A stretch of DNA of 64,000 nt from Herbidospora sakaeratensis (GTDB lineage Bacteria > Actinomycetota > Actinomycetes > Streptosporangiales > Streptosporangiaceae), in NCBI RefSeq assembly GCF_001570525.1, contig NZ_BBXC01000010.1, positions 496,001 to 560,000 on the forward strand. Direction: 5' to 3'. Shown here piece by piece: positions 39,607-64,000 of the stretch (the stretch's first letter is position 1; every line of letters begins with the position of its first letter). The notes beneath the pieces were generated by a model. That model was not told the DNA's origin, ran no database searches, and saw nothing but the letters and a program-made list of their open reading frames with translations. The position numbers and the translations under genes are program-made.

Positions 39607-41406
39607 TTACGCGTCGAGTAGCAGGTCAGGGAGGTCGGCCACGACACGACCTTCCTGATCCAAGCCGCGAGCCGCGTAATAGTCGGAGATCATCGCTCCC
39701 AGGCGGTCGGCGTCGAGCGCCGCATGACGGCCCGAACCGAGCTCCAACGGCGTCTCCAGCATCCGGGCCGGGAGCGTGTCGTCGGCGGCGGTGGCGCCCT
39801 CACGTGTGTTGAAGGCCCGCTTCGCCCGGACGATCCGCCGCGCGGTTGCGCGCAGCTCGGCCGCGTCGACCTGCCAGCCGGTGACCAGCGCGAGCAACTT
39901 GGCCCACTCGGTGAACGGGTCGTCGAAGACGCCGCGCAGGAACTTGCAGAGGATCATCGAGTCCATCACCGCGGCGCGGTCTTCGGTCTCGACGGCGGCG
40001 GCGACATGGGCGGACCCGCCGGCCAGCCGGTCGAGGTCGCCCGACAGGTCGGCCTCGTAGGCGCCCGACCGGTTGTGGTCGGCGCCTCGTGCGTTCACCG
40101 CGAGGCCGAGCGCCATCGTCTGCAGGCTCCGGGGCTCGTACCCAGGAAGTTCAAGGCCTTTGACCTGCGGCGCGAAGTCGATGGAATCCTGCCCGACCAC
40201 GGCGGCGGCCCGGCGCGAGCCCTGCGCGAGCAGTTCCCCGAGGCCGGGGGACCTGGCCCCGATCAGGTCGAGCGCGCGCAGCAGCGCCGCGCCGTCGCCG
40301 AACCGCAGCCACGGCTCGTCGATCAGGCCGCGTTCGGCACACTCCATCGCCCAGGCGACCGTGCCGCCCGCCGAGATGGTGTCGATCCCCAGTTCGTCGC
40401 AGCGCGCGCTGGCGGCGAACACCTCGTCGGGGTCGGACACGCCACACAACGGGCCGAGAGCGAAGACGTTCTCGTACTCCATCCGCTGGGTGCCGCCGCC
40501 CTTGCGCGAGTAGATGTGCTCGCAGCCGATGGAGCACGACGCGCAGCTGTTGCGCGCCACCCCGCGCAGTTGGTGGAGCTCCTCGGCGGCCAGCCGGGGC
40601 GCCCCTTCGAAGGTGGCGGCGGTGAAGTTGCGGGTCGGCAGGGTGCTGACGGCGTTGAAGGCCAGCAGGTTGGCCAGCGTGCCCAGCTCCCGGTACTTCG
40701 CGGTGGCCGGGCCGAAACTGCGCCTGCGCAGGTCACGGGCGGCGGCCAGGACGCCGGGCTGGTCGGCGACCGACACCTTGGTCGCGGCTCTGACCAGGAT
40801 GGCCTTGACGTTCTTGGCGCCCATCGTCGCGCCCAGACCGCCCCGGCCCGCGTGGCGGCCGTCGTGGCTGATGGTCGCGTAGCGGACCAGCCGCTCACCC
40901 GCCGGGCCGATGGCGGCGGTACGCCAGTTGCGGCCGAACCGCGCCCGAGCCGCCGACTCCGCTTCGGCCGCGGTTAGGCCGGCCAGCTCGGGGGCCGGTT
41001 CGAGGCGCACGCCGTCGCCGTCGATCAGCAGTACCGAGAGCTCGTCGGCGCGGCCCCGGATCACGAGCGCGTCGTGTCCGGTCAGCTTGCCCGCGATGGC
41101 GAACTGGCTGGAGGCGAGAGCGTCGGTCAGCAGCCCGGTCAGCGGCGACTTGGCCACGACGGCGAACTTCGCGCTAGTCGTCAGCGGGGTGCCGACCAGG
41201 GAGGAGAAGACGAAGGCCAGCGGCGCCTCGGGAGCGAGGGGGTCGACGCCGGCGGGGGCCAGACGGTGGAGCAGCCAGGTGCCGAGGCCGACGCCGCCCA
41301 GGTATGAGCGCAGCACCCGTTCGTCGAGCTCGTAGGGAGTGCTTGTCGCGCTGCTCCCGGCGACGTCGACGAGCAGGGCCCGTCCGAAGAATCCACCTGG
41401 TGCCAT
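39607..41406 (-). CDS. Aldehyde:ferredoxin oxidoreductase family (tungsten-pterin) enzyme
   Basis: A 599-residue AOR-family protein. N-terminal pterin-binding domain with YLGGVGLGTWLLHRLAPAG and GRGGLGATMGAKNVKAILVR. 4Fe-4S cysteines in SCASCSIGC and, near the C-terminus, SMILCKFLRG. AOR enzymes use tungsten bis-pterin and oxidise aldehydes to acids with ferredoxin as acceptor. It lies one base after the MobA-MoaD fusion gene. AOR is uncommon in aerobic actinomycetes, so this suggests use of tungsten or a low-potential pathway, possibly paired with formate dehydrogenase. Confidence 0.88.
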   Translation of the reverse strand: MAPGGFFGRALLVDVAGSSATSTPYELDERVLRSYLGGVGLGTWLLHRLAPAGVDPLAPEAPLAFVFSSLVGTPLTTSAKFAVVAKSPLTGLLTDALASSQFAIAGKLTGHDALVIRGRADELSVLLIDGDGVRLEPAPELAGLTAAEAESAARARFGRNWRTAAIGPAGERLVRYATISHDGRHAGRGGLGATMGAKNVKAILVRAATKVSVADQPGVLAAARDLRRRSFGPATAKYRELGTLANLLAFNAVSTLPTRNFTAATFEGAPRLAAEELHQLRGVARNSCASCSIGCEHIYSRKGGGTQRMEYENVFALGPLCGVSDPDEVFAASARCDELGIDTISAGGTVAWAMECAERGLIDEPWLRFGDGAALLRALDLIGARSPGLGELLAQGSRRAAAVVGQDSIDFAPQVKGLELPGYEPRSLQTMALGLAVNARGADHNRSGAYEADLSGDLDRLAGGSAHVAAAVETEDRAAVMDSMILCKFLRGVFDDPFTEWAKLLALVTGWQVDAAELRATARRIVRAKRAFNTREGATAADDTLPARMLETPLELGSGRHAALDADRLGAMISDYYAARGLDQEGRVVADLPDLLLDA

Positions 41407-41407
41407 C

Positions 41408-42271
41408 TCAGCCTCCTGCGTCCGCGGAGAGGAAGGAGACCGTGTCACCCGCCACCAGGGGCAACTGTTCGTCGCGGGTGACCTGGTCACCGTTGAGCGC
41501 GGCCACCACGTGGCGGTTCAGGGTGAGCCCGGCCGCCGTGGCGGCGGCTCCGAGGATGGCGGCCCGGACCTCGCGCGGCCGGTGGCTGCCGTTCCGCGCG
41601 AGCGCGCCGAAGCACTCCACCACGATCTCCGGCGGCGTCTGGTCGCGGGCCGCCGCGTAGTCCTCGGGGGAGTTGATGTTCACGACGGATTCCAGCGTCG
41701 GGTCGCGTCGCGCGAGTTCGGCGTCGGCCAGCAGATCCTCGTCGCCGAGTTGGGCGACGTCGCAGTGCTTGAAGAGCATGCCCGGCCGGAGGTCGCCTTC
41801 GGCCAGGAGATCCTTGACCAGGCCGGCCAGTGAGGTCCGGTATCCGGCGGCCAGGGGCTGCCGGAAGCCTCGGGCCACCGGCAGCGCGACGTCGGTCCCC
41901 GCGGGCAGGGCGCGCATGACTCGGCGGACGTAGGCCGGGTGGAGGAACGGCATGTCGGTGGAGCACACGAAGGCGGTCTCGGCCCGGTCGGCCAGCGCCG
42001 CGAGCCCCACGGCCAGCCCCTGCATGGGGCCGAGACCTTCCACGGGGTCCTCGACCACCGAGACGCCCGGCGGGAGCGGAGGCAGTTCCTGATCGGGCGC
42101 GGCCACCACGATCACCGGCCCGTCGACCGTCCGGGCGAGGATCGCGGCGGCTCGGTAGAGCAGTGTCGAACCGTGCCACTCCAGCCAGGCTTTGGGCTGC
42201 CCCATACGCGTGGAACGCCCGCCCGCAAGAACAACGCCCGCAGTTGTCGGCATCTCCGCATGGTAGGTCAC
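41408..42271 (-). CDS. MobA-MoaD fusion for molybdenum/tungsten cofactor synthesis
   Basis: A 287-residue fusion. Residues about 8-195 are MobA, the GTP:molybdopterin guanylyltransferase (GVVLAGGRSTRMGQPKAWLE, FVCSTDMPFLHPAYVRR). Residues about 210-287 are a ubiquitin-fold MoaD/ThiS domain ending FLSADAGG, with the diglycine needed for thiocarboxylation. GTG 42271 has AAGGGA upstream; the ATG at 42253 has a Shine-Dalgarno touching the codon. It supplies the dinucleotide cofactor and possibly pterin sulfur to the adjacent AOR and FDH. Confidence 0.82.
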   Translation of the reverse strand: MTYHAEMPTTAGVVLAGGRSTRMGQPKAWLEWHGSTLLYRAAAILARTVDGPVIVVAAPDQELPPLPPGVSVVEDPVEGLGPMQGLAVGLAALADRAETAFVCSTDMPFLHPAYVRRVMRALPAGTDVALPVARGFRQPLAAGYRTSLAGLVKDLLAEGDLRPGMLFKHCDVAQLGDEDLLADAELARRDPTLESVVNINSPEDYAAARDQTPPEIVVECFGALARNGSHRPREVRAAILGAAATAAGLTLNRHVVAALNGDQVTRDEQLPLVAGDTVSFLSADAGG

Positions 42272-42309
42272 GCCGCCGGTTCCCTTGTGTCCGCTAGTCG
42301 TGCATGTTC

Positions 42310-42320
42310 CATACTGTATG
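42310..42320. promoter_or_regulatory. Palindrome CATACTGTATG before the MobA-MoaD gene
   Basis: A perfect 5-1-5 palindrome about 40 bases upstream of the MobA-MoaD start. It shares GTATG/CATAC with the GGCATACA repeats before fdhA, suggesting one regulator for the two transcription units. Confidence 0.35.
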
Positions 42321-42433
42321 CATAACCTACACCGCCGAACCCGCCGTGGAGCAGGCGGGGGGGTGCTCATGGTGCCAAGTGCGGCTGGGCCTCGCCCTCC
42401 GAGCAGTGAAGCCCACGACTTGCTGTTTGGTCG

Positions 42434-42967
42434 TTGAATAGAGATCTGGGGCCAGATATCGAGAGGCATCCGCTTCCTCCTGCGACGGCTGCGGCCCTCG
42501 CCATGGTACGGAGCCCGTACGCGCGCGAACGGTTGGCTGAGCTGGAGACGCGTTTCGCCGGGTTGCCGTGGACGCACCGCCTCGGTGTAGCCACAGTGCA
42601 TACCGATCCGTACTTCGTGCCAGCGGTGATCCAATTCATCGACGAAGCCGGCAATTGGCGTTCAGGCGAGCAGGCTGGGCGAATCCTCGTACAGCACGCC
42701 TCATTCCTGACCATCGAGGCCTTGCGAGAGGCCTTGAACGGCTGGTGTAAGAACACGCAGTGCCGAACGGCGGCGGACGTGCCGAATCTCGCGGTGCTCC
42801 ACTTCCACGGCACGTCGCACCTCGGTCCTCAGCGCGCCCCGGTGTTCAGGGAGTTTCTGGCCAACATCCGGGAGCTACAAGGCGAGGGCGACTACTACAG
42901 TTACCCGGCGCTGGAGGAGACTCTGGCTCGGTCGGGATACAATTTTTCAGTGGCTTCAGCACCCTGA
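42434..42967 (+). CDS. Protein of unknown function
   Basis: A 177-residue protein without known motifs: LAELETRFAGLPWTHRLGVA, YFVPAVIQFIDEAGNWRSGE, LQGEGDYYSYPALEETLARS. Neither the TTG at 42434 nor an ATG at 42503 has a clear Shine-Dalgarno. GC content is lower than in the Mo/W genes before it, suggesting the start of transferred DNA. It ends 39 bases before the convergent GNAT gene. Confidence 0.5.
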   Translation: MNRDLGPDIERHPLPPATAAALAMVRSPYARERLAELETRFAGLPWTHRLGVATVHTDPYFVPAVIQFIDEAGNWRSGEQAGRILVQHASFLTIEALREALNGWCKNTQCRTAADVPNLAVLHFHGTSHLGPQRAPVFREFLANIRELQGEGDYYSYPALEETLARSGYNFSVASAP

Positions 42968-46974: not shown

Positions 46975-47955
46975 TCAGTACTCGTCGAGTACCCGGCGCA
47001 GAGTTGGACTGACGTTGTGAAGTCTGCTGCTGTCACCCATCCCGCGGGAGACTGTCACGAGACCTCTGTCCTCCAGATCTTTGAGAAGTTGGTCGACGAC
47101 GAGTCGCTCGGTGCTCGCTCGATCAGCCAGGTTGTGAATGATCTGGATACCTGTAGGCGGGTCGTTGACGAGAGCTGAGACCACGCGCTGGTGAACCTGG
47201 TCGACGTCAGGAAGGACGGCGGATATTCCGACGGAGTATCCGAACCGTGTGAGCTTCACATCATGGACGTGTTCGGCCCGGAAGGACACGTCGACATAGT
47301 CGCCCTCGCCCAGAGCGTGCATGGATTCCACGAGTGCTTCAGCGGTCACGCCGGCTGCTTGTGCGCGACTTTCGATGATGTTCCAGTCCAGGAGGAGTAA
47401 ATGTCCGCTGGCGATGGCTTCCCGGATGATCTCGGTGAGTACGAAGGCGTCGGCAGGCGTCAAGCCCGGAATCCGCGGTGCGACCATTGTGTAGGTGGGC
47501 GGAGGGCCCACGCTCGGACGAGCGTCATGGCCGTGGAGGGTGTCTGCGATTTTTCGCGCCGTCGCCTGGACGCTGGCTGCTGATCGCTCTGCGTCGACCC
47601 ACAGCAGGTGCTGGAGAGGGGCGGGCATGGGAACGTTGTCCAGCCTGACGGGGATGAGGCGGGTTCCTCTATTAACGCGCTGCACGGTGGCGTGGTCGAG
47701 CTCTTCACGAACCCATGGCTTGCTGACCGAATACTGGGATACGACGAGAATGACGGCATCGGCAGTGGCAAGGCCTTCGTCGAAGAGCATCTGCACGAGG
47801 CTGTCGCCCGGCCGGATTTCCCACTTGTCCAACCAGGGCTGAACGCCGAGGTTCGCGATCATGCGGGCGAGGGGTTCGGCAAAATCAGGCTTGTCCTCGC
47901 TGGCGTGCGAGACGAAAGCGACAGGGGGCCGGATCGGGTCGTCTGACTCTGGCAT
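46975..47955 (-). CDS. TIR-domain protein with C-terminal winged-helix-like region
   Basis: A 326-residue protein. Residues 8-145 form a TIR domain: VAFVSHASEDKPDFAEPLAR, WLDKWEIRPGDSLVQMLFDE, ADAVILVVSQYSVSKPWVRE, EL. The Glu in WVREEL is at the position of the catalytic glutamate of NAD-cleaving TIR domains. Residues about 165-326 look like two winged-helix units (LTPADAFVLTEIIREAIASG, STERLVVDQLLKDLEDRGLV). It is probably an NADase effector or a TIR-linked regulator in anti-phage defence. No SIR2, Thoeris or CBASS partner is adjacent. Confidence 0.8.
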   Translation of the reverse strand: MPESDDPIRPPVAFVSHASEDKPDFAEPLARMIANLGVQPWLDKWEIRPGDSLVQMLFDEGLATADAVILVVSQYSVSKPWVREELDHATVQRVNRGTRLIPVRLDNVPMPAPLQHLLWVDAERSAASVQATARKIADTLHGHDARPSVGPPPTYTMVAPRIPGLTPADAFVLTEIIREAIASGHLLLLDWNIIESRAQAAGVTAEALVESMHALGEGDYVDVSFRAEHVHDVKLTRFGYSVGISAVLPDVDQVHQRVVSALVNDPPTGIQIIHNLADRASTERLVVDQLLKDLEDRGLVTVSRGMGDSSRLHNVSPTLRRVLDEY

Positions 47956-48259: not shown

Positions 48260-48490
48260 TCACTCCGATTCTTTCCTGCGGGCCTTTCCCGGTTGGATCG
48301 GCCTCGCACTAGAGGTGTATGTGTGGCTCGCGGGATTCCCCCCAAAAATCTTCGAGGAATTTTTGGCGGCGATCTCGGCGGCCCTCGACACGACTTTGGC
48401 CGCCGCGTCCTGAGAGACGGTCCGCCGCGCGGCCTGAGCGTTTCGGGTACCGAAAGACGACCGTTCGATCTTCCTCTCGATGTCGGTCAT
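48260..48490 (-). CDS. Small basic protein coupled to the sigma-like gene
   Basis: A 76-residue Ala/Lys/Arg/Ser-rich protein (TDIERKIERSSFGTRNAQAA, VVSRAAEIAAKNSSKIFGGN). Its start overlaps the stop of the upstream sigma-like gene (ATGA). No family recognised; the charge suggests nucleic-acid or protein binding. Confidence 0.5.
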   Translation of the reverse strand: MTDIERKIERSSFGTRNAQAARRTVSQDAAAKVVSRAAEIAAKNSSKIFGGNPASHTYTSSARPIQPGKARRKESE

Positions 48491-49275
48491 CTGATTCCCC
48501 TGTTCGTCATGCGGGTCCTTTCGTTGGCGATCATCCGTTCAACTGCTTTGTCTGAAATGCCTAGTTCCTCGCCGATCTCTCGATGGGGCATGCCCATGGC
48601 GTGGAGAAGGACGGCGTGACGTACCCGTGGATTGGAAATGGCCTTGATCGCCCGTTCGACCTCGGACTGCACGACCAGGCGCTGCTCCGGGCCGGTGATG
48701 AAACCGCGCTCTACGGCGTCGAGAGTGTCGTGATCGGCCAGGATGTGCTGGCGCTGTTCGGTTTTCAGCCACTGCCGGTAGACGTTGCTGAAGCGGATCA
48801 GGCACTGGCCGATGAAATAGGTGCGCAGGGAAGCCCTGCGCCGGGGGTCCCACTTGCCCTTGAGCAGGACGTCCTGCCGGAAGTGGTAGAGAGCCTTGCC
48901 GACGGTCTCGCCGGCGAGTTCTTCGACGACATCCGGGTCGTCGAAGGCGCCGAGGGGTGGTTCGGGAAGTCCTCCGAAGCCTCGCTCTCGGCAACGCGCC
49001 ATGATCAGTCCGCGCCGAATCCAGCCGCTAATGACCGCCAAACCGTACTTCGCGAGTTCATGGGCGAAGAGGTCGTAGTCCGGTCCTTCGAATCTCCGCA
49101 GCGCCAGGCTGTTCACCAGGTCGAGGTCGGCAGCGAGGCGGTCGACCCGATCGGCCTCTGCCTGATTGGTGTTGTCGTGCAGCCAGATCTCGGGAACCTG
49201 GGCCTCTTCTGACTGTTGTACGGGCACGTCCGACAGCCCGGCGGGGGGCCGCTGCTCGTCGAGATCGTGCTCCAT
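48487..49275 (-). CDS. Sigma-70-like protein
   Basis: A 262-residue protein with a C-terminal region-4 HTH (MGMPHREIGEELGISDKAVE then RMIANERTRM) and a helical region resembling sigma region 2 (KWDPRRRASLRTYFIGQCLI, RFSNVYRQWLK). The start at 49275 has AGGAAGGA upstream. It may direct RNA polymerase to island promoters. Downstream are two very small proteins that might act as anti-sigma or partner factors. Confidence 0.7.
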   Translation of the reverse strand: MEHDLDEQRPPAGLSDVPVQQSEEAQVPEIWLHDNTNQAEADRVDRLAADLDLVNSLALRRFEGPDYDLFAHELAKYGLAVISGWIRRGLIMARCRERGFGGLPEPPLGAFDDPDVVEELAGETVGKALYHFRQDVLLKGKWDPRRRASLRTYFIGQCLIRFSNVYRQWLKTEQRQHILADHDTLDAVERGFITGPEQRLVVQSEVERAIKAISNPRVRHAVLLHAMGMPHREIGEELGISDKAVERMIANERTRMTNRGIR

Positions 49276-49583
49276 AAGGTCCTTCCTCACGGGTTGTCCG
49301 CAGAAGCGATCAGCGGGCAACCCTTCCTAAGTCTGGAAATCCGGCTTCCCCCCAACTTTTTTCAAGATCTTTTCGAGGGGGTGATCCTGAAGGTCTGTGT
49401 AAGGAAGGGAGCGGATGGAGGGGCGGTTCGTCGGCACCGTGGCCGTTCGAGCGCGGGTGGATGACTGGTGAGGCGATGACCATCAAAGTCATCGCCCGGG
49501 CTCGGACTTGGAGCCGAATCTCGCGTCGCCCAGTCGCTGTCCGGCGGCGAGCTGACTTCCGCTCGTCTCGAAGAAACTCGAGC
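49276..49583. other. Intergenic region with a hairpin
   Basis: No gene. GGCGATGAC (49472-49480), seven bases, GTCATCGCC (49488-49496) forms a perfect 9-bp hairpin about 88 bases past the stop of the JAB-E1 gene, probably the terminator of the ubiquitin-like operon. The remainder should hold the sigma-like gene promoter. Confidence 0.45.
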
Positions 49584-50951
49584 TCAAGCCGCGAAGAGGG
49601 AACGCCCGCGACCCAGTCCTCCGCGCGGCCCGCAGAAGTCGCAGTCAGGCCGGGGCCGGTTCACAATCTGGTCGCGTTCGCCAGTACGCAGCCGGTGGAT
49701 GGTCCAGGTGGGCGGGTCGCCGAGGCTTTCGTGAAGGCCGGTAGCGGAGAGCATGAAGTGGTTGACGGATTCGGCTGCGGTGAGGGCATTGAGGGCGATG
49801 ACACTGGCTGCCGGGACCTCAGCGACATAGCGAGCTGCCTGCCTCTCCTGCTCGGGGAGCAGGTCGATGGCCAACTCGGTCGGGTCGATGAAACCCCTGC
49901 ACCACAGGCAGCCCTCGCCGGGAAGGAGTGGTCTGCTGACCGCGTGGATCTGGCCGATGTCCCCTGTGTCCTGGCGGATTGGGATCTTCACGCCCATCTG
50001 GGTGATGGGAATCAGGTACTGGCTCCCGATCTCGGTGGAGACGTGGCGGGCTGCGGGGCTGTCGGCAGCGAGAAAGATCCAGTCGACGAACGACAGTTGC
50101 GTTTTCGCCTCGGGGTGCTCGACGCGCTGATTGACGATGGTGAGCTGGATTTCGGGATTGGCTCTGCGCGCGTTGCGGATCGCCAGTTCGGTTTTGGGCT
50201 TGCCGATGTCGGACTGTTCTGCGGCGACGAGTCGGGGGAGATTCGTCACGTCGACGATGTCGCCGTCGATGAGGACGAGGTGGCCGACACCGAGCCGAGC
50301 CAGCAGTTCGACCATGATGCTGCCGACACCGCCGAGACCCACCACGGCTACTCGGAGACGGCTCAGCGTCTCTTGTCCGGCGTCTCCGAAGAGACGGGCC
50401 GGCCGGTCAAAACGGCCGGCCTCGTGGCTGCCTGACTTCGCCGCGGGGAGAGGGCGCAAACGGAGGAGGTTGGAGGTCAGGACATTGACCTCCGCCAGAT
50501 CGGCCCGGCTGCCGTCAGAGAGCCACAGGTCTCCGGCGGCAGCTTGCGGGGTGAAGACCAGGCCTCCCACGGTCTGGCCTGTGAGCTGGACCAGCGCCGG
50601 GTAACCGAGTTCATGCGAGGCCATGTCGACCTTGGAGAAGGCCACGCGATCACGGCCGTCATGGTTATGGACGGAGAGGTACACGAGTCCCTCTCGGTGG
50701 GCGCGCTCGGCCGCGTCCCGGACGAAGTCCGCGCTGAGCGCGTGGTGCCCGGAGGTGCCGGTCACGTAGTCTTCGCCGTCTTTGGCCAGGAGCAGTTCCC
50801 GCCCGAGAAGGCGGGGTCCGCGAGGGCCAGGGGCGGTCCCGGCGAGAATGACCGCGCCGTGCCCACGGTCGTCAGAGAAGAGGTGTTCGGACAGGGTGGT
50901 CCACTGGCGGTGGGTCAGCGTGAGACTCCACCCGCTGGCGGGCGGATTCAT
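49584..50951 (-). CDS. JAB-E1 fusion of a bacterial ubiquitin-like system
   Basis: A 455-residue fusion. Residues about 10-150 are a JAB/MPN metalloprotease-like domain with YLSVHNHDGRDRVAFSKVD, close to the H-x-H...S-x2-D JAMM motif (spacing one longer). Residues about 165-420 are a ThiF/E1 adenylation domain: VAVVGLGGVGSIMVELLARL, VLIDGDIVDVTNLPR, and CLWC, which includes the probable catalytic or zinc cysteines. CDFCGPRGG lies at the C-terminus. The start overlaps the E2 stop (ATGA). The E1 would activate the small Ubl and the JAB domain would process or remove it. Confidence 0.85.
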   Translation of the reverse strand: MNPPASGWSLTLTHRQWTTLSEHLFSDDRGHGAVILAGTAPGPRGPRLLGRELLLAKDGEDYVTGTSGHHALSADFVRDAAERAHREGLVYLSVHNHDGRDRVAFSKVDMASHELGYPALVQLTGQTVGGLVFTPQAAAGDLWLSDGSRADLAEVNVLTSNLLRLRPLPAAKSGSHEAGRFDRPARLFGDAGQETLSRLRVAVVGLGGVGSIMVELLARLGVGHLVLIDGDIVDVTNLPRLVAAEQSDIGKPKTELAIRNARRANPEIQLTIVNQRVEHPEAKTQLSFVDWIFLAADSPAARHVSTEIGSQYLIPITQMGVKIPIRQDTGDIGQIHAVSRPLLPGEGCLWCRGFIDPTELAIDLLPEQERQAARYVAEVPAASVIALNALTAAESVNHFMLSATGLHESLGDPPTWTIHRLRTGERDQIVNRPRPDCDFCGPRGGLGRGRSLFAA

Positions 50952-51325
50952 CGGTCGCGAAACCACTTGAGGACCCTCTCGGCCTTGTTGGCGGCGCTGT
51001 CGACCGTGGCGTCCCACTTGTTCGACTTGCGGGACAGCTGAAGCGCCGTACGCCGCTGATATTCACAATCGCTGATCGCCTCGCCATGAGGGGCTCCGTC
51101 CACACGGGCCACCTTTCCGACGTAGTGCGGGTAGACATCGCTGTGCGGGTAGGCGGAGTTGAGGTGGAAGCCCAGCCAGGTGACATTGGGCGTGTAGAGC
51201 GGGCCGACCTCGACCCCCTCGACGAGGACATGAGCGCCCCCGGCGCCGTCCGGGACGACCTCGACCGGCAGGCCGGCGAAGTGGGCACGAACGGCGTCGA
51301 GAGCTTCGATGACCTTGAGGTTCAT
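50948..51325 (-). CDS. E2-like protein of the ubiquitin-like system
   Basis: A 125-residue protein with an E2-like core: VTWLGFHLNSAYPHSDVYPH then YVGKVARVDGAPHGEAISDC. It has a single cysteine, Cys87 in AISDCEYQRR, the natural candidate for the Ubl thioester. The NSAYPHSDVYPHYVG stretch resembles the FPxxYP region of prokaryotic E2 families. It is coupled to the Ubl gene before it (5-base gap) and to the JAB-E1 gene after it. Confidence 0.75.
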   Translation of the reverse strand: MNLKVIEALDAVRAHFAGLPVEVVPDGAGGAHVLVEGVEVGPLYTPNVTWLGFHLNSAYPHSDVYPHYVGKVARVDGAPHGEAISDCEYQRRTALQLSRKSNKWDATVDSAANKAERVLKWFRDR

Positions 51326-51330
51326 CAAGA

Positions 51331-51597
51331 TCAGGAGTTGTCGTCCGGGGCGACGGCGAGGAAGTCCTCGTTGCGGTGGACGTTGATCGCCTCGTCGTCG
51401 TCGACCGGGACGAAGTGGTTGCCCTGGCGGACCGACAGGACGAAGTTCTCCTGAATGAGAACACCCTGGCGGATCGCCTCGAGCTTGATGCCCCGGCCGG
51501 TCGTCGCGCGGTCGGGGAGAACCACCGGCTGGTGGTTCACCGTCACGTTGACCGGCTCGAGCCGCGAGCCCAGGACGGACACAGTCTGCTCAGACAT
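51331..51597 (-). CDS. Ubiquitin-like beta-grasp protein
   Basis: An 88-residue protein with one multiubiquitin-type beta-grasp domain: VTVNHQPVVLPDRATTGRGI, KLEAIRQGVLIQENFVLSV, VDDDEAINVHRNEDFLAVAP. The TTGRGIKLEAI helix is typical of that family. It is the first gene of the Ubl-E2-JAB-E1 operon. The C-terminus ends APDDNS with no glycine, unlike canonical ubiquitins whose C-terminal Gly is adenylated. Confidence 0.8.
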   Translation of the reverse strand: MSEQTVSVLGSRLEPVNVTVNHQPVVLPDRATTGRGIKLEAIRQGVLIQENFVLSVRQGNHFVPVDDDEAINVHRNEDFLAVAPDDNS

Positions 51598-52043: not shown

Positions 52044-53573
52044 GTGATGTCATCTAGTGATATGCGTCGGTGGGCAAAGCTGAACGAGCGCCAGATCGCG
52101 ACCCTGCGCCGCATCGCGGACGGCGAGTCGGTCACCGCCAAGGACAGTGATCTGGCTCGTACGGTCTACGCACTCCGGGACAGGGGGTTGATTTCGATCC
52201 CCCGGACAAACGGCATATGGATCGCTGAGGTAACCGAGGCAGGCCGCTTCTATCTCGCGAATGGCTGCTACCAGGGCACTTCGGCTCTGACGTCTCCCAC
52301 CGCGAGTTCCAAGAGCAAGAGCGGACGAGCTGCCGACCTCAAGCTGCAAACGCCTCATGCCCTAGCGGTTGAACTGATCAAGCGGTTGCAGAAGGGAGGG
52401 GGGACGCTGCATGTCCAAGACTTAGATGAGGCCACTAGGGCGCTTCATCGACGGGCACTGGACGCGGCCAAGCGTCATGGGCTGATCCCTGAAGGCTTCC
52501 GCCTCCTACATACCGGTCGCGACCGCGGAGATCTCATCCTCCGGCTGGAGGATGAGGCGCATCCCGACGGGACGGACTGGAACCGCGTCCGATTAAGCGC
52601 TCGTGATCTGATCACCGACCCTCAGGAGCTTGCGAACTGGCTTCGAGAAGATCGTCGCTCCATCGACGTCACCGACGCCATGATCGGCCGCGCTCTGGAA
52701 GTGGTAGGCGCCTTAGCGGAGGGGCTGCTGCCACGCGGCCACAGCGTGGGCGTATCTAGGCGGGGCAAACCACGTGGCCTCCACGCACACGCGCGTGGAC
52801 ACCAGTACGCGCTGAGCATCAAGGAGGAACTCGACCGTGTTCCTCGCGTCTATACCGAAGAGGACCTCCGGAGCCGAGGGCTCTACGCCTGGCAACGGGT
52901 CACGCCTGAGTACGACGAGGTCCCGTCAGGTCGGCTCAGGCTCGAACTGGGGGAAGGGAGTGGTCTGCAGTGTTGGGCGGACGACAAGCGTTCACGTCTG
53001 GAGGACAAGGTACGAACGGTCGTCAATGCGATCGAGCGCCTCTCGGAGGCTGATCAGCAGGCGCGTTTGGCGCGAGAGGAGGCACAGCGACAACGCGATG
53101 AGAAATGGCGACGCCAGGAGGAGGAACAGCGACGACAAGCGGCCGCGCGGCAAGAAGAGCGCGATAGGGAGCTTGCGCAAGCCGCCGACCAGGCGCAGGA
53201 GGAGCACAGGCGGCGAGCTTTCGGGCAAGCGCTAGAAGGATGGGCTAGCGCAGCGGCTATTCGCGAATTCTGTCTGGGACTGGAGGCACTTGCTGCGACT
53301 CTGCCCGAACAAGAGGCAACGATCGCCCAGTGGGTGACGTGGGCGCGAGAACAAGCTGATCACATGGATCCCCTGAACACGCCGAGCGTGCTGACCGAGG
53401 TGAGCTTTGACATCGAGCCGACGGCGGAAACCTTGCACCGCTACCTGCGAGAGGAGAAGCGAGGCGAACGAGATGCACGACCAGAAGAGCCCACTGAGGT
53501 CAGGTATGACGTTCTCTATCCATCAGCATGGCGATGGGGACGCCCAGGTCGTTCTCAATGGTGGCGGCGGTAG
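52044..53573 (+). CDS. Large charged protein with coiled coil, function unknown
   Basis: A 509-residue protein common in actinomycete accessory DNA. An N-terminal winged-helix-like region (LNERQIATLRRIADGESVTA, VYALRDRGLISIPR) is followed by an alpha/beta part and a long charged coiled coil at about 330-400 (EAQRQRDEKWRRQEEEQRRQ). The start codon (52044-52062) is uncertain and lacks a clear Shine-Dalgarno. It overlaps the convergent gene at 53500 by 74 bases. Role unknown. Confidence 0.65.
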   Translation: MMSSSDMRRWAKLNERQIATLRRIADGESVTAKDSDLARTVYALRDRGLISIPRTNGIWIAEVTEAGRFYLANGCYQGTSALTSPTASSKSKSGRAADLKLQTPHALAVELIKRLQKGGGTLHVQDLDEATRALHRRALDAAKRHGLIPEGFRLLHTGRDRGDLILRLEDEAHPDGTDWNRVRLSARDLITDPQELANWLREDRRSIDVTDAMIGRALEVVGALAEGLLPRGHSVGVSRRGKPRGLHAHARGHQYALSIKEELDRVPRVYTEEDLRSRGLYAWQRVTPEYDEVPSGRLRLELGEGSGLQCWADDKRSRLEDKVRTVVNAIERLSEADQQARLAREEAQRQRDEKWRRQEEEQRRQAAARQEERDRELAQAADQAQEEHRRRAFGQALEGWASAAAIREFCLGLEALAATLPEQEATIAQWVTWAREQADHMDPLNTPSVLTEVSFDIEPTAETLHRYLREEKRGERDARPEEPTEVRYDVLYPSAWRWGRPGRSQWWRR

Positions 53574-54384
53574 TCGTAGCCCCGCGCTTGCGTAGTGCCT
53601 CGATTGCCCGGTCGAGGAGATGGCCGAGCCGTAAAACTTCGGTGCGCAAGGCGATCAGCTCATCGAACCGCGCAACGGTCTCCTCTCCGCACCACTGCCG
53701 TACAAAGGCATGGACGGGTTCGCGTTCGTGCAGCCGGAACTGGGGTTTCTCGCGAGCATCCTGCCATGATCGCCGATAGGACATCCCATAGAGCGCCTCA
53801 TCACGGAGGTCAGCCTCTCCGCTGTGAATCGCCTCCATTACCTCGTTGCAGAAGACGTTGGCGATGGTCGGCATCAGTCGTCGTGCCGCTTGCCAAGGAC
53901 TGATCAGCGTCCCATGGCGATCACGAAAGGCCAGAGGGTCGTCTCCTATTTCTTCGGGGGTGAGTCCTAAGCGTTCCGCCATACGCATGGGGTTGTCGAT
54001 CCGAAGGACTCCGGTCTCACTCCTACTTCGACCGAGGACCAGCTGCCGGCCAAGTCCGCAGTTCTTCACGACGAGCAACGCGGCTTCATACTCGACCGCG
54101 CCGTCAGCCATAGCGGATGCTTCTCTAACTGCCAGCAGTCGCTGTTCGTCGTTGAGCCGCGGTTTGATAGCGGCCCAGCGATCCAGTAGAGAGGTATGGG
54201 AGACCCATTCCTGTAGCCCGGAGTCGTCGCCGTCCAGACGGCGGATCCTGATCGAGCCGTCGCTGTCCCTTATTCTGATGATTGTTACGCGGTGAACCGG
54301 CTCGCCCAGCGACCTCGGCCGCTCGCGATAAGCCCACTCTTCTCCAATCTCCACGCCTGACAGTAACTCCGATTTTGTGACCAT
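53500..54384 (-). CDS. Protein of unknown function
   Basis: A 294-residue protein: RVTIIRIRDSDGSIRIRRLD near the N-terminus suggests a small beta domain; the rest is mainly helical (LIALRTEVLRLGHLLDRAIE, ALRKRGATTTAATI). No recognised motif. It converges on the 52044-53573 gene and the two overlap at their 3' ends, so they may regulate each other by antisense transcription. Confidence 0.6.
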   Translation of the reverse strand: MVTKSELLSGVEIGEEWAYRERPRSLGEPVHRVTIIRIRDSDGSIRIRRLDGDDSGLQEWVSHTSLLDRWAAIKPRLNDEQRLLAVREASAMADGAVEYEAALLVVKNCGLGRQLVLGRSRSETGVLRIDNPMRMAERLGLTPEEIGDDPLAFRDRHGTLISPWQAARRLMPTIANVFCNEVMEAIHSGEADLRDEALYGMSYRRSWQDAREKPQFRLHEREPVHAFVRQWCGEETVARFDELIALRTEVLRLGHLLDRAIEALRKRGATTTAATIENDLGVPIAMLMDRERHT

Positions 54385-54694: not shown

Positions 54695-57604
54695 CTATCT
54701 TTCGTCAGGGGCGGGTTCTGTGCCGAGCCCAGCCAAAACGGCCACATCGGGGTCGAGGTCGCTCACGGGAACGGAGTCCACGTCTTCGACTTCCTCCGTA
54801 AGAGTGGGCAGGACGTACTCCTGACCCAAGCCGGCCAGATGGAGGGGCAGCGGCAGGCTCAGGGCCTCCGGGTAGTCCGGCGGCTGCCGGAGTTGGTGCA
54901 CGGCCAGGGCCAGTGACTCTGGGTCGTCTCCTTCTTCCGGGTGACACCCGAGAACGGCGATCTCGACGAGTCCAGGGCTCCAGCCCTGCTTGTCCGCGTC
55001 GATCGTCTGTTCTCCGGTGGCCCCCGGCCGGGGACCGAGTTTGTCCGCCGCCACTGCGGAACTCTTGAACTGCACCGGCTTCGGTGTGGTGCTGTAGAAG
55101 ACCCGGCCTTCGCCGCTGTTCTCCGGCACCCACAGGTGGGTCGAAAGGCCGTTCGTCCCGCCCTTGGCGTTGACGCCCCACCACTGGGCCGTCTCTCTTC
55201 CTCGCGCCGTCCGGACCCGGATCAAGCGCAGGTCGGCGTCCAGGCGCCGGGCGGGCGCGTGCCCGTCGCGGACCTTGTCGGCCTGGACACGGCCGTCCTG
55301 CAGCCAGGTCCAGTGGGAGCGGGCGTTCTGGCCGTGGGCGAGCAGGAGCGTGGGCTTCCCACGCAGGGAACGCCGCATCTGCTGGAGCCACTCCTCCGTG
55401 TCGCGGCGCTGCTCCTCCATGTCCCGACGCCAGCTTCCTCGACGACCGGAATCGGGGTCATCTGGTGAAATCTCGGCGAGCCGCGTCAATTTCAGCAGCA
55501 TCGCGGGGTACGGGATCCACGCGCCGGCCCCGTCGTCCGCGTCCGTATCCCATCCGTCGACAGAAGCGATCCCACTGCCGAAGCCCTGCGGGGTGACCAG
55601 CACGGCGACCGGGACGTGCGCGGCCCAGCGGTTGCGCGCTGTCCGGTTCTTCCGTACCAGCCAGACGGCCGCGTAGCGCAGGCCGTCGGGCAGGCGGTCA
55701 CCGAGGCCGTGCTCCGGGTGCACCCGGGCACCGAGTTGACGCAGGCCGTCGTCCCACGCCATCGAGGCGCGGTAGACGACGTTCTTCAGTGTGTCGTAGC
55801 GTCCGGCCTTCTTGGGCACGGCCACGAACTGGGTTACCGCGTGGGCGTCCGCGAAGCCGAGCCGGAGCGCGAATTTGGGGTCGTGGTCGCCCGTCTCGAA
55901 GTCGTCCCGCCGGTCGATCTCCACCAGCGCCAGGGTGGGAGTCTCGTCCTCGGTGTCGCGGCCCAGCCAGGACCTCGCCGAAGCCCGGCGGCCGTGAACG
56001 GCGGCGCTGATCGTTGTTGAGCTGCGTCGCTCACCTTTCGAGGGGAGCGGCAGGCCCTCGGCCAGACCGTCGGTGAGTTTCAGGCAGCGCACCTTGACGG
56101 TGAGCTCGGGCGACTGCCATTCCAGCACTACCGGCGTCCCCGGCCGAGCGGCTTCGTACGACTCCTCCGCTACAGGTGCGCTCTCGTCCTTGAGCCCGAG
56201 AAGGCCGGTGAGTGCCGTGACGGCGGCCTCCCGCATCTCTCTGGTCTGCCACAGCAGCCGTACCTCCAGCAGCGGCAGTGCTCCCGGGCCTGCTGGTGGA
56301 CGCAGCCGGGAGAGCGCGAAAGCCGCGGCGGTACGCCGTTCGGTGGCCTTACGGACGTCCTCCTGCGGCTGGTTCTCCTTCTTCACGGTAGGAGGGGCGT
56401 TGACGGGTTTCGGGCCCGCGCGCCGGGTTCGTACCAGCGGAGGGGTGGCCCGGAGTTCGGCGGGGAGGGCCTGCTCGGCCCATTCGGCCAGTTCGGAACG
56501 CTGGTGGGGCATGAGCCCCGGTTTCACGCCATGTGAACCCATGGCGGTGCTGTGGACGATCCCGGCCCGCAGGCCACCCTCCAGCCAGCCATCCGGCGCG
56601 GAAAGGATCTCATCCGGGCCGGGCAGAGAGGCCGCAAGGGAGATGCCCTGCAGGATCCGAGCGGGCCCGCCGTTCACCCAGTCGGTGACCCAGCCGCCCG
56701 TCTCCCTGTCCCAGCGGCGTTCCATCCGGGCCAGCGCGTAGCGTTCGCTGAAGGGTGCGCCGGGCAGATACGGCACCTGGGGGCGGAGGAGCACCGTCGA
56801 CTTGCGCCGGAACGGGAGCCGGACCCGGCCGCTTGCGGTGCTGACCCGGGTCGCCCAGCGGCGCACGCCGGAGTGCAGGTGAAAACGGGGCAGCGGATCG
56901 AAGGGGACGGTGTGGAGCGTGATGTTGAGAACGATCGAGTACCACCACGTCCGCGTGCCCTGGGTGAAGGGCAGGGGCTGAGAGACGAGCTCGGCTCCCT
57001 GGTCCCGGGGACCACGCGGCACGGCCCGGAAGCCGAGCCTGCCCGCGGCGTGTTCGTAGGGGCCCAGGGCGAGCACACGCCTGGCCAGCCAGTCGGTGCT
57101 GAGGGTGAACTGATGTGGCAGTGGTGCGGCGCCACCACCGACGGCCGGCGGGCAGCAGATCAGCTCGGCATCAACCGGTTCCCAGGTGGGAGGGGTCGCC
57201 GCCAGCATCGCGCGGACGTCCGTCAGGACGGCCCGATGTTCCCGCTCCGGCCGAAGATCTGCCAGCCAGCGGTCGACCAGGGAACGGAGCACCGGCCCCG
57301 GCAGTGGATCTGGCACGTCATCGGGAACGTACAGCCAACCGGAGGGACTGTTCCCATCCGGTCCGGAAGGCCGGGGCATCACCAGGACGTCAGGTGCGAA
57401 AGCCTGGATCACCTGCTCAAACCGATGCGTGGGGACGGTACGGAAGGGCTCCGCACCCTCAGGTCGGGCCAGGTTGCAGAGCCCCAGGATGGACTCCCGC
57501 CAGTGTTCAGGGAAGGCGAGCGCGCGGAATCGCTGGACACGACCGGCATCGTTGGCGACGGGCTGCCAGGAGGCGGTCTGGATGGTGTCGTAATTGGCGG
57601 CCAC
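54695..57604 (-). CDS. pPIWI-RE family PIWI protein
   Basis: A 969-residue protein of the prokaryotic pPIWI-RE family. The N-terminal half fits the pPIWI_RE X region (VAANYDTIQTASWQPV), the middle a MID-like region (LPLLEVRLLWQTREMREAAV) and the C-terminal half an RNase H-like region (PTLLLAHGQNARSHWTWLQD, LRLIRVRTARGRETAQWWGV, with the Arg-Glu pair that names the family). The GTG at 57604 has GAGGA upstream and follows the helicase stop by eight bases. In this family the PIWI protein is thought to use a guide to recognise invading nucleic acid, with helicase and REase partners. Confidence 0.85.
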   Translation of the reverse strand: MAANYDTIQTASWQPVANDAGRVQRFRALAFPEHWRESILGLCNLARPEGAEPFRTVPTHRFEQVIQAFAPDVLVMPRPSGPDGNSPSGWLYVPDDVPDPLPGPVLRSLVDRWLADLRPEREHRAVLTDVRAMLAATPPTWEPVDAELICCPPAVGGGAAPLPHQFTLSTDWLARRVLALGPYEHAAGRLGFRAVPRGPRDQGAELVSQPLPFTQGTRTWWYSIVLNITLHTVPFDPLPRFHLHSGVRRWATRVSTASGRVRLPFRRKSTVLLRPQVPYLPGAPFSERYALARMERRWDRETGGWVTDWVNGGPARILQGISLAASLPGPDEILSAPDGWLEGGLRAGIVHSTAMGSHGVKPGLMPHQRSELAEWAEQALPAELRATPPLVRTRRAGPKPVNAPPTVKKENQPQEDVRKATERRTAAAFALSRLRPPAGPGALPLLEVRLLWQTREMREAAVTALTGLLGLKDESAPVAEESYEAARPGTPVVLEWQSPELTVKVRCLKLTDGLAEGLPLPSKGERRSSTTISAAVHGRRASARSWLGRDTEDETPTLALVEIDRRDDFETGDHDPKFALRLGFADAHAVTQFVAVPKKAGRYDTLKNVVYRASMAWDDGLRQLGARVHPEHGLGDRLPDGLRYAAVWLVRKNRTARNRWAAHVPVAVLVTPQGFGSGIASVDGWDTDADDGAGAWIPYPAMLLKLTRLAEISPDDPDSGRRGSWRRDMEEQRRDTEEWLQQMRRSLRGKPTLLLAHGQNARSHWTWLQDGRVQADKVRDGHAPARRLDADLRLIRVRTARGRETAQWWGVNAKGGTNGLSTHLWVPENSGEGRVFYSTTPKPVQFKSSAVAADKLGPRPGATGEQTIDADKQGWSPGLVEIAVLGCHPEEGDDPESLALAVHQLRQPPDYPEALSLPLPLHLAGLGQEYVLPTLTEEVEDVDSVPVSDLDPDVAVLAGLGTEPAPDER

Positions 57605-57612
57605 GAGGGTCC

Positions 57613-60600
57613 TCAGCGGTGGTGTTCGAGAGTGGACAGAGCGTTGTGCAAGGGCGCGTACAGCAAGGTGGCCAGCGCCGGGTCCGCCGGATCGGGAAAG
57701 CCCGTGGGGTCCGCGCCGGCCTGGAAGTAGGGGTCGAGGATGAAACGGAGCGCGGCCAGCAGCCCGTCGTCCGGTGGAATCGGCTTGGTGGACGCGGGCG
57801 CGAGCGCGAGAGCCGTTCGCGGCGCGAAGCTGGCGTCGACGAACACGACCCGGGCGGGCACACCGCCACGGACGAGGCGGCCGATGACCTGCCACATGGT
57901 GACCAGCTGGTCCCAGGCGAAGGCGCGCTTCTCCCAGGGCGACAGCCGCGAGTACACATAGCGGCGGGACAGCAGCCGCCGCCACTCCTGCCTGGCCTCG
58001 TGGCGGAAGTCCAGACCCGCGCGGTCAAGCCCGGCGGCTTTGGCGACCAGTTCCGCGAACGTGGCCGGACCGTCGCGATCGTCCGCCCGTCGCTGGTTGC
58101 GTACGAACCGGCAGACCCAGTCGTTGACCGCGAAAATGGCCAGGGCCAGATCGTCGGGGCGTGGATGAGGACGGGACAGGAAGAAGGCAGTGCCGAACGC
58201 GGCGTTGCGTTCGGTGTTGAGGATGTTGTGCCCTCGCTCGACCGCCAGCAGCGGTGCGACCAGAAGTTCGGCCTCGTCATCGTCGGCGAACATGGCCAGG
58301 TCGCCTCGGCGCAGTGCGGCGGCGTGCTCCTCGTCCACCGGGCGAGAGCCACGGAGAGACTGATCGAGATCGGCGTCGTCGGACGCCAGGACGCGCACCC
58401 GGCCATGCCATCGCTCGATGCCGTGCAGTGTGTCGGCGACGATGTTCGCCTCTCTGTAACTGCCGACGAGCAAGATCGCTCGGCGCCGGCGGTCGTCCTC
58501 GATGAGGGCGAGCTCCTCCTCCAGGGGGCTGGCGTTCGCCCCACGTCCCGGGCTTCCCAGACGCATGGCGAGGGCTCTGGCCGCCGCGGGCCGGACCTTC
58601 GGGTCGGTCCCCGAGAGCTTCATCGGCTTGCCCTCGGCGTCGTACAGAAACCGGGTGGCGAAGACAGATCGCCCCACGGCCCGGAGGGAACGTTCCGACG
58701 GCATGAGCACCGCGGCGACCGGTTCGAGTACGTGCGCACGGGTCGACGTTCCGGCCCAGCTCGTGCCGGATATGAGGATCACGTGGGGGCCGGGCCGACC
58801 GGCTCCCGGATCGGCGCCGAGGTCGGCCAGGGAGAGGAGCAGCTCCCGGCCGACGCCCGCACACCGGAAGAAGCGCAGCGTGCCGCTGTTCCTGCCGTCC
58901 TCGTCTCGTTCGCGCTCGTCGGGCAGGTACTGGAACCCGAGCACGTTGCCCATCGGCGCTTCGGGGATGAGTGGCGCGTAGTCGAGTGGTGGCCGCCGGG
59001 CCAGCTCGTTTCCCGTCGCGTCCAGGCGCAGCGCCGCTTCGACCTGCGGCCAGAGGAAGGTCAGTCGCTCCAGCCGCTGGTGCAGTGCTGACAGGAGCAG
59101 CAGGAACTCCAGCCTGCGGCAGGTGATGTCGTGCCAGACGGGATCCGAAGCGGGGGCGGGGGTCCGTTCGATCAGCCGGTTCAGCAGTGCCCCGACCCGG
59201 GTGCGGGTCCGGGCGGTGGACAGGGTGTGCAGGAGGTCCCGGGTGGTGTCCACCAGATCGTCGGTGAGGGTGCCGTAAGGGCCGGCACCGCCCAGCGGAT
59301 CGTCGCGGAAGGCATCCAGCAGCGCCGTCAGCTCCGCGCGCAGCGCGTCGAGCACGATGTTCGTCCTGTCGGGTTCGGCCGACTCGTCGTCGTAGGCTTC
59401 GAAGAGTTGCTCTTCGGCCGACACGCCGTCCGCCGACTGCTGTTCACCGAACCAGTCCGCGAGCAGTTTCTCCTGAAGGGTCCATGGGCTGAAGTACTCG
59501 ATGTCGGCCCACTGGAGCAGTTCCCCGTCGGAGATGAGCAGCCGGTAGAGCCGGTCGGTTGCCGCAGACACGACCGTCAGCGCCGAGTTCCACCGCTCGA
59601 TCTCCTGGTCGGTCAGTGGCAGGCGTCCCCGCCGCGACAGTTCTTCGATCTTGTGCGTGTGCAGCTGGTCGAGCCAGGAGTCCGGCCCCGGAGCGACGAG
59701 TGTCGCGGAGGGCGCGAAGATCTCATCGAGCTTCATCTGCACTGAATCGGCCTCGTCCACGATGACGATGTCACTGCGCAGGCAGGCCAGTTCGAGATGG
59801 CGGATCCGCTCCTCGTTCAGGTGCCGGGGGACAGCCGTCTGGACCAGGCTGGCCGGGTTGGCTACCCAGATCAGCCCCTCGACCAGATCGCGGGCCGCGC
59901 GGTGGCGGGGGCACCTGGCCCACAGCGGGCAGCCGTGTTGGCTGCCCTTGAGGTCGTCGTCGGTCGCCGGCCGCTCCAGTGACGTCTCGCCGGGCCGATA
60001 GGGCTCGGGAAGCACGATGCCGGAATGCGTGCTGCCGGGACTCGGCCGCCTTTCCGGGAAGAGGGCGGTGCAGGGTGCGTCGGCATAGCGGAGAGGCTGG
60101 ATCGCCTCAGTGCTCCGTAGCGCGTCGACAGCGCAGGCCGTGCTCAGGTCGTCGAAGCCGCGCGCGTCATGGTCGAGCAGGTTGTCCAGGCCGCGGGAGG
60201 CGAGCCGGCGGTGCAGCCGTTGGACATGGGTCTCGCGTGTGGTGGGACCCAAGACCGGAACGGCCGGCAGGTCCAGATCGCGGAGGAGCTCGCACAGTCT
60301 CAACTGCTCCGCCACGTCGCCGACGACCAGGGTGATACGCAGATCGCGCCGGGCGGCCCAGACCGCCAGGAGCACCATGAGGGTGCTCTTTCCGGCGCCG
60401 ACCATGCCCACCAGGTGCAGCAGCCCGTTCAGGCGGAGTTCGTCGCTTTCGCTGAAGCCGCGGCCGTCCGCGTCGCGCGGCGCGAATCTCAGCTCGTGCA
60501 GCCGAGCCTCCCAGTTGCCGGGGCGTTCCACCCCGATGGCCGATTCGTGCTCGTCCATCCATCGTGCGGTGTCGAGCAGCTCGGTCCGGGTGATCGTGCG

Positions 60601-61194: not shown

Positions 61195-62335
61195 GTGTGG
61201 TCCCTTCACGAAGGCGGGCGGTGGCTCGGGCGACGAGTTCGCCGTCGGTGAGCAGCCGCAGGCCGCGGGCGTGCGCGGGGCGGCTTCGTTCGAAGACGGA
61301 GACGTAGCCGGGCCTGGCCGTGACCCGGTGGCGGGGGACGACCCAGAAGGCCTCGTCATAGGGCGGTTCCTGGGGGACAGGCCGGGCCGCTCTGCCGAGG
61401 AACACGGGATTGGCCCAATCCTTCACGTCGATCGCCCACCGGACCCCGTCGGGGAAGGTGACGAGAAGGTCGTATGCGTCATATCCCGGCCACATGCGCA
61501 CGACCAGCCCGAGGGCGGTCAGCTTGTCCTGCAGGGCCGCTTCGGCCAGCCCCGGGCCGGTGACGAACTGCCGCAGCGGTCGCTCAAGGTGGAACACCTC
61601 GCCCACATCCTCCTGGTGGAGGCGCCGACCCAGTGGCGCGGGTCCCTGCCGGCGACAACGGTCGCGTTCGCACCACCAGTCGCCACCGCGGACCGGGGTG
61701 AGCAGAGTGCGGCAGCGTCCGCAGCAGACGTACTCGCCACGTCGGAGGTGGCTGGCGGGGGCCGTGAGGTAGATGCGCCGGATCAGCTCGTGTACCGGCT
61801 CAAGCACCAGGTCGCCGAAGACCTCGAAGCTCTCCGCCGTGGTCAGGACCGGCCGGTTGACCAGGAGCCCGCGAAAGGCGGTGTAAGCGTCCTCCTCGCC
61901 ATAGTCCCGGCACAGGCGCAGGGCGGTGCTGATGATCTCCCGATCGCGTAGGGCCACTGCGGTGTCCCGGGTGCGTTCGGACCATTCGTGACACAGTTCG
62001 GTCGGTCGGCCGGAGTCCTCGTCGAGAAGCCTGTCGTCCGGACCGATCACATCGGGCGGCAGATCGAGCGGCCAGTCCACGAGAGGCGTGGACCGGCACC
62101 ACGACACCAGCTCGATGAGGCTCGCCGGTGGCGTGGCTCCCTTCACCAGGCAGGCGAGCACTGTGCGATCCAACGCCCGCTGTGCCTCCTCCGGGTAGGG
62201 GAGCGTGAAGGCGGTCAGACCGGTCTTCTCGTTGAGCTGGAGCATCGCACTGGCCAGCGTGCGTACCAGAGGGACTCCCGCGTGCGTGGACCAGTCGGCG
62301 GAGTGGGCCGGCAGCCCGGTCTGCTCAGACGTCAC
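61187..62335 (-). CDS. pPIWI-RE restriction endonuclease
   Basis: A 382-residue protein. A zinc ribbon at about 202-228 (CCGRCRTLL and WWCERDRCRR) is followed by a PD-(D/E)xK-type nuclease core at about 280-310 (YDAYDLLVTFPDGVRWAIDV then KDW), with the Asp and the D-V-K motif. This matches the dedicated REase of three-gene pPIWI-RE islands. Start GTG 62335 overlaps the stop of the upstream nuclease gene. Confidence 0.82.
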   Translation of the reverse strand: MTSEQTGLPAHSADWSTHAGVPLVRTLASAMLQLNEKTGLTAFTLPYPEEAQRALDRTVLACLVKGATPPASLIELVSWCRSTPLVDWPLDLPPDVIGPDDRLLDEDSGRPTELCHEWSERTRDTAVALRDREIISTALRLCRDYGEEDAYTAFRGLLVNRPVLTTAESFEVFGDLVLEPVHELIRRIYLTAPASHLRRGEYVCCGRCRTLLTPVRGGDWWCERDRCRRQGPAPLGRRLHQEDVGEVFHLERPLRQFVTGPGLAEAALQDKLTALGLVVRMWPGYDAYDLLVTFPDGVRWAIDVKDWANPVFLGRAARPVPQEPPYDEAFWVVPRHRVTARPGYVSVFERSRPAHARGLRLLTDGELVARATARLREGTTRA

Positions 62336-63954: not shown

Positions 63955-64000
63955 CACGGCTCGACCTCCATGGTCCAAGAGAAGCTCAATCTGTGAACTG

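Follow-up and report, generated by a model that had tools for sequence, protein, structure and literature searches.

The closest described relatives of the operon reported here are the Bub operons and the type 6e operons of bacteria, and Bub is said, in work by Ye et al. from 2026, to use oxyester intermediates. Ending in glycine is regarded as one of the traits that define ubiquitin-like modifiers (Ubls). Type 6e was predicted in 2006 and consists of a polyUbl, an "inactive" Cys-less E2/RWD-like protein, a JAB-E1 fusion and a metal-binding protein, as set out in the part of PMC1779556 used here. In a 2026 paper, 544 Bub operons were counted, often standing beside CapW, CapH+CapP or CapK+CapS regulators, and that paper states that no protection against phage has been demonstrated for Bub operons (PMC13373217).

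The window analysed here is the whole stretch of 64,000 nucleotides from Herbidospora sakaeratensis, an actinomycete with an 8.6-Mb genome, and its minus strand carries a tightly packed operon in the order Ubl, E2-fold protein, JAB-E1 fusion. The earlier note had described this as a tightly coupled operon of the bacterial ubiquitin-like conjugation type, and we could locate all three reading frames: 5 bases separate the Ubl stop from the E2 ATG, and the JAB-E1 ATG overlaps the E2 stop by 4 nt (ATGA). The features, with the evidence for each in brackets, are the following.

51331..51597, minus strand: Ubl, a single beta-grasp domain of the Multi_ubiq-like type, 88 aa (open reading frame; related Ubls)
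51334..51345, minus strand: tail codons D85-D86-N87-S88 (DDNS in 68 of 78 related Ubls, Ser in 77 of 78)
50948..51325 from the ATG, with an alternative TTG at 51328, minus strand: E2-fold protein, Prok-E2_E/BubB-like (Prok-E2_E, AlphaFold model, BubB match)
51032..51034, minus strand: codon of Ser99 (TTG numbering), which sits at the E2 catalytic position and is the predicted nucleophile (Ser in 75 of 75 E2s)
49584..50951, minus strand: JAB-E1 (ThiF) fusion, BubCD-like (matches to ThiF and to Citrobacter BubCD)
50625..50669, minus strand: JAB metal site H97-x-H99-x8-S108-x-x-D111, motif HNHDGRDRVAFSKVD (conserved in 84 of 86 members)
49899..49910, minus strand: first CxxC (C350, C353) of the E1 zinc ribbon (present in all 78 sequences aligned)
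49827..49829, minus strand: codon of Tyr377, in the E1 crossover loop where ThiF/E1 enzymes carry the catalytic Cys (Tyr in 84 of 84 aligned members)
49632..49643, minus strand: second CxxC (C439, C442) of the E1 zinc ribbon (present in all 78 sequences aligned)

The Ubl scored 21.5 bits against Multi_ubiq, just below the Pfam cut-off of 24.5, and its C-terminus reads EDFLAVAPDDNS (...AVAPDDNS) before the stop codon. Genome contigs were scanned with a five-member JAB-E1 alignment, which gave 80 loci, and an upstream Ubl was found in 71 of them; together with the window and 6 plasmid relatives, these made up a set of 78 Ubls. The annotation "multiubiquitin domain-containing protein" occurs among plasmid relatives. 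The loci were picked by patterns from near relatives, so the following counts describe the serine-ending clade and not all type 6e Ubls: DDNS was the end of 68 of the 78 Ubls, Ser was the last residue of 77, and a GG end was found in none. Among the 71 Ubls from contig loci, 61 ended exactly in DDNS and 70 in Ser, and the non-DDNS tails were QEDS, HEDS, DDHS, DENS, EDDS and DHCS. The sole exception found, in a MAG (L065:3683-3964), reads through the motif as DDNS-SEPTC. The Ubls encoded in the family loci were 37-80% identical to the window Ubl, and the Ubl domains across the set were merely 30-88% identical to it, yet the tail was kept; only Asn21, Lys38 and Ser88 were invariant in 48 aligned Ubls. 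The Ubl is encoded first and has 1, 2 or 3 domains among the relatives, and where a Ubl had two or three domains (15 cases), the motif occurred solely at the true C-terminus. The set covered more than a dozen phyla, namely Actinomycetota, Pseudomonadota, Chloroflexota, Cyanobacteriota, Nitrospirota, Acidobacteriota, Gemmatimonadota, Spirochaetota, Planctomycetota, Armatimonadota, Myxococcota, Bdellovibrionota and others.

Thus the lack of a C-terminal glycine (APDDNS), to which the earlier note had drawn attention, proved genuine. The same note had asked whether homologues end in glycine and the window carries a local frameshift at 51331-51345; this was checked, and since the homologues share the tail, a sequencing error or frameshift at the Ubl end was ruled out. 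All six serine codons were used for the last residue (TCG 24, TCC 18, AGC 13, TCA 4, AGT 1, TCT 1), and across the loci the reading frame of the E2 gene took all three possible relations to that of the Ubl, so the motif is not due to mutation bias or gene overlap, and conservation merely through codon overlap with the E2 start was discarded as an explanation. Judging from these codons and frames, selection on the tail is at the protein level. The unusual DDNS end is therefore real, and it is probably the working end of the Ubl. Our literature search, which left out two key Bub papers, found no description of a Ser-terminated tail.

The residue before the serine could be suspected instead, because position -2 was Asn in 65 of 74 Ubls. 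MccB acts on the C-terminal Asn of MccA, and the JAB-E1 model has MccB among its nearest E1-like folds, so the Asn87-Ser88 pair might form an Asn succinimide, or Asn might be activated after loss of Ser. However, Asp or His, and once Cys, replaced the Asn in related tails (EDS, DHS, HCS) with the final Ser kept, and a succinimide is possible from Asp and impossible from His. We consider this chemistry very unlikely.

The comparison with sister families gave a clean contrast. In an unrooted tree with long sister branches, 86 serine-clade JAB-E1s were split from six sisters with 100% support. The sister Ubls had Gly at or near the end in nearly all families examined: those of Rhizobium phaseoli, Synechocystis and Oscillatoria stop at TTEG, other ends were NFG or TFG-HGNH, NFG-HGRR, and NPG-QN or NPG-HAAT, and a Mycobacteroides relative ended in IGGVA. 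The Ubl of the archaeon Salinigranum stops at VFG, and the annotation of its neighbourhood shows no DUF6527 gene. Fusion of the Ubl to the E2 was seen in at least 7 sister loci (Citrobacter and six more), the junctions reading ..INNG-E.. or ..TTEG-.., and in none of the 78 members of the serine-ending set; in the PDB chains, Citrobacter BubA stops at Gly229 and BubB begins just after. A DUF6527 gene was annotated or detected in 14 sister loci, and none was found in the serine-clade flanks by annotation and phmmer; the two phmmer queries did pick up sister copies that had diverged, which makes it unlikely, though still possible, that the gene was overlooked in every serine locus. Hence two features that go with Bub and type 6e, a glycine at the mature Ubl C-terminus and an accompanying metal-binding DUF6527 gene, were not found in the serine-ending clade, and the sisters, with Gly, DUF6527 and often a Ubl-E2 fusion, stand against a clade with none of these. 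The idea that DUF6527 is a simple tail-trimming peptidase was weakened in the course of this comparison, since Ubls that end in Gly anyway (Synechocystis, Oscillatoria, Rhizobium) are accompanied by it too.

These sister tails bear on another explanation, that DDNS is a conserved leader which a peptidase, either the fused JAB or a host enzyme, trims to expose an internal residue. Trimmed tails have precedents in pro-SUMO and in the Citrobacter BubA-BubB fusion, which is cut after Gly229. The short tails behind Gly in sister Ubls (TFG-HGNH, NFG-HGRR, NPG-HAAT), the sister fusions, the Citrobacter BubA structure solved up to Gly229 and the extension DDNS-SEPTC of one serine-clade member all fit such trimming. 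But no conserved residue would be exposed, as position -5 was P, G, D, N, A or S and position -6 was mixed too; moreover, DDNS is among the best-conserved parts of the Ubl, whereas the sister tails are variable, and a DUF6527 gene was not found in the serine clade. We regard a trimmed leader as unlikely. The earlier note had left three choices for the Ubl, namely unusual processing, use of another end or non-covalent action, and these could be narrowed: because the tail is near-invariant, lies only at the true C-terminus and belongs to a clade without Ubl-E2 fusion or DUF6527, the simplest reading would be that the Ser carboxylate itself is activated.

The E2-like protein was then compared with known folds. 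The window protein scored 19.4 bits against Prok-E2_E, which is under the Pfam cut-off, and its AlphaFold model had a pLDDT of 93. The best solved match of the model was Citrobacter BubB (Z 13.5, 120 residues, 2.5 A, 18% identity), followed by E2/UEV domains with Z of 8-9.4; when the E2 profile was compared with human UBE2D2 by hhalign, the two could not be aligned in a usable way. Matches to SIV/HIV-2 protease were weak, covered residues 12-72 only and disagreed with the E2 fold, so they were judged to be chance. As in Bub and type 6e, an E2/RWD-like protein without a catalytic Cys stands between the Ubl and the JAB-E1. The earlier note had singled out the one cysteine of this protein, position 88 in TTG numbering, and this residue did not hold up as catalytic: its column was Cys in 4 of 75 relatives, and Ser99 was invariant instead. 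Ser99 lies 13 residues ahead of helix 112-125, which we take to be the spacing of the catalytic Cys in UbcH5-type E2s, and its column is the Ser of the WSRH motif in BubB-type E2s and Cys in a haloarchaeal relative. This relative is a Bub-like E2 on a Salinigranum marinum plasmid (L120:1820-2236), with Cys (KYCIHH) where bacterial relatives have Ser.

A classical thioester route through Cys88 of the E2 would have in its favour that this cysteine is common to the window and its closest relative. Against this, the column is rarely Cys, the residue sits in a hairpin 24 residues ahead of helix 112-125 and away from the catalytic position, and the window E1 has four Cys in total, all of them within the two CxxC pairs. 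The probability of this route is very small. The two zinc CxxC pairs were also the only Cys conserved in every aligned E1 member (column 291 is Cys in 71 of 79 relatives and Val in the window), and the conserved catalytic Cys of E1 and E2 that marks the classical thioester E1-E2-Ub systems was not found here.

The JAB-E1 fusion scored 126 bits against ThiF (Pfam), and its JAB domain is N-terminal to the ThiF/E1 domain, as in Bub and type 6e. The closest solved relative was Citrobacter BubCD (E 4.5e-26, 24-25% identity), and this was also indicated by hhalign (E 2.9e-35, 99.9%, 394 columns) and by the match of the model to 9ea4 (Z 39.8, 427 residues, 3.2 A). The earlier note had called the JAB motif spacing one residue longer than usual; the His-to-Ser spacing is indeed 8 residues in the window and 7 in Citrobacter BubCD, but it is not unusual, since 81 of 86 family members have 8 residues there and the sister families have 7-9. 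The column of the JAMM glutamate (position 54) varied among clade members (E 31, D 25, H 9, R 8, and also S), so peptidase activity of the JAB may be missing from some of them; either the acid residue has been assigned tentatively or the mechanism of the peptidase may differ. In the crossover loop, the Tyr377 equivalent was Tyr in all sister E1s too and corresponds to Tyr370 of Citrobacter BubCD, so that a Tyr at the E1 nucleophile position is shared with Bub and type 6e. In hhalign against ThiF, Cys184 fell one column off Tyr377, and the register there is good to +/-1. With Tyr377 and Ser99 invariant, both nucleophile positions are hydroxyl side chains.

The E1 ATP-site residues were invariant across the clade, and the comparison with the sisters yielded a short list of clade-specific residues: Ala297, Gln320 (for Asp) and Ser385 (for Ala) at the E1 site, and S114-H115-x-R117-G-Y-P (Pro120) beside the JAB metal site, where the window has Leu at 117. 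By their conservation pattern these are candidate tail-recognition residues, and shared ancestry alone could give the same pattern. The JAB residues could also be read in another way, in which the Ubl is not conjugated and DDNS is a C-terminal peptide ligand that might dock, for example, in the E1 groove or the JAB pocket. The complex would then be non-covalent and serve signalling or assembly, and the E2-like protein would be a dead RWD-type binder. The absence of a conserved Cys from the E2 and the acidic C-terminal tail, which looks like a docking motif, agree with this, and a catalytically dead RWD-type E2 was proposed for type 6e (Iyer et al. 2006, in the part of PMC1779556 used here). 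However, a dead complex needs neither an invariant E1 ATP site nor an invariant Tyr377 and E2 Ser99, and the depositors of PDB 9eav crystallised the Citrobacter BubCD-BubB-BubA complex with Y370F in BubCD and D104A in its JAB, suggesting that catalysis was being trapped. A purely non-covalent role thus seems rather improbable.

Activation of the serine end is the reading we prefer. What was observed in its favour is the three-gene operon itself, the conservation of the tail, the folds of the proteins, a Tyr and a Ser that do not vary at the two nucleophile positions, and a clade in which no DUF6527 or fusion was found. In the proposed cycle, the E1 half of the JAB-E1 would adenylate the Ser88 carboxylate, the Ubl would pass to Tyr377 of the E1 and next to Ser99 of the E2 as oxygen esters, the E2 would place it on a target, and the JAB half would take it off again. 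Oxygen esters are proposed because the protein set has no conserved Cys free for a thioester. We give about an even chance to the overall picture of a three-gene operon of the Bub/Iyer type 6e class, from a separate and widespread clade whose Ubl is made in its final, Ser-terminated form and runs through adenylation and an oxygen-ester cycle. The wider claim, that a multi-phylum Ubl branch is activated and conjugated through its C-terminal Ser by oxygen nucleophiles, Tyr in the E1 and Ser in the E2, and with no maturation, is held tentatively, at slightly under an even chance. The general preference of E1 enzymes for a C-terminal glycine counts against activation of Ser88, as does the glycine at or near the end in nearly all sister families examined. 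The clade-wide features could stem from shared ancestry alone, which counts against this explanation as well, and so do the variable JAMM glutamate and the Cys column 291 of the E1. If it is true, adenylation and transfer as known from ubiquitin do not depend on a glycine end or on cysteine chemistry.

Relatives of the JAB-E1 were sporadic, occurring in 13 of 341 Streptosporangiaceae genomes and in none of the 6 other genomes listed from the genus. Relatives were located on plasmids, and no full relative was found in phages. Xre-HTH and IrrE/M78 genes adjoin many serine-clade operons, though not the window operon, which has a pPIWI-RE three-gene island and a TIR gene on its flanks. The island at 54695-63978 on the minus strand is complete, with an RNaseH/MID pPIWI_RE protein, a domain Z protein and a domain Y + REase protein, and a PD-(D/E)XK nuclease gene lies beside it. 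The TIR-domain protein (46975-47955, minus strand) has a C-terminal winged-helix-like region and resembles the TIR parts of retrons and Thoeris; it is a defence candidate. Such surroundings make it plausible that the operon acts in defence or in the response to stress. The gene immediately downstream of it encodes a sigma-70 region-4-like protein (48487-49320, minus strand), and a sigma-70 gene also adjoins the sister operon in Pseudosulfitobacter (L123:569-1138). Divergent from the operon, a reading frame of 509 aa (52044-53573, plus strand) overlaps another (53500-54384, minus strand) tail to tail by 74 bases, and no family match was found for either. The sigma-like, TIR and divergent 509-aa genes were ruled out as parts of the system because they had no homologue at other loci. 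Farther away, at 39607-42634 on the minus strand, an aldehyde ferredoxin oxidoreductase stands beside a MobA-like nucleotidyltransferase, and the two appear to form a cluster for a tungsten/molybdenum enzyme.

Compared with known systems, the window operon was most like Citrobacter Bub (9ea4, 9ea5, 9ea8, 9eae, 9eav, 9d59), with which it shares the JAB-E1 fusion, the E2 fold, the gene order, the Tyr in the E1 crossover loop and the Ser at the E2 catalytic position. Unlike there, where BubA has three domains, is fused to BubB and is solved to Gly229, the window has a separate, single Ubl with a DDNS end; a DUF6527 gene follows the Citrobacter operon and none goes with the window operon, and the BubC E1 is without both CxxC pairs. 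MccB-MccA is alike in that an E1-like enzyme acts on a non-glycine C-terminus, but it makes a peptide antibiotic and is without Ubl, E2 and JAB. CBASS Cap2/Cap3 (6a/6b) also has E1-like and JAB parts, but there E2-E1 is one protein and the target is a CD-NTase; the PADLOC E1-E2 models match the ThiF part only. Bil (type II BilABCD) and type 6d follow the same logic of a bacterial Ubl, E1, E2 and JAB with another gene set and other fusions, and the 6d Ubls have a highly conserved C-terminal Gly and the E2 a Cys, according to the passages of PMC1779556 used here. Type 6e, in the same passages, agrees with the window clade in the 1-3-domain Ubl, the Cys-less E2-fold protein between Ubl and JAB-E1 and the sporadic and mobile occurrence; the clade differs in that it has no metal-binding protein, its E2 is likely active through Ser and not inactive, and its invariant C-terminal Ser is not mentioned in those passages (PMC1779556). 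Since two common Bub features, the Gly end and DUF6527, were not found with it, the window operon is a variant of the Bub/type 6e pathways rather than a plain member.
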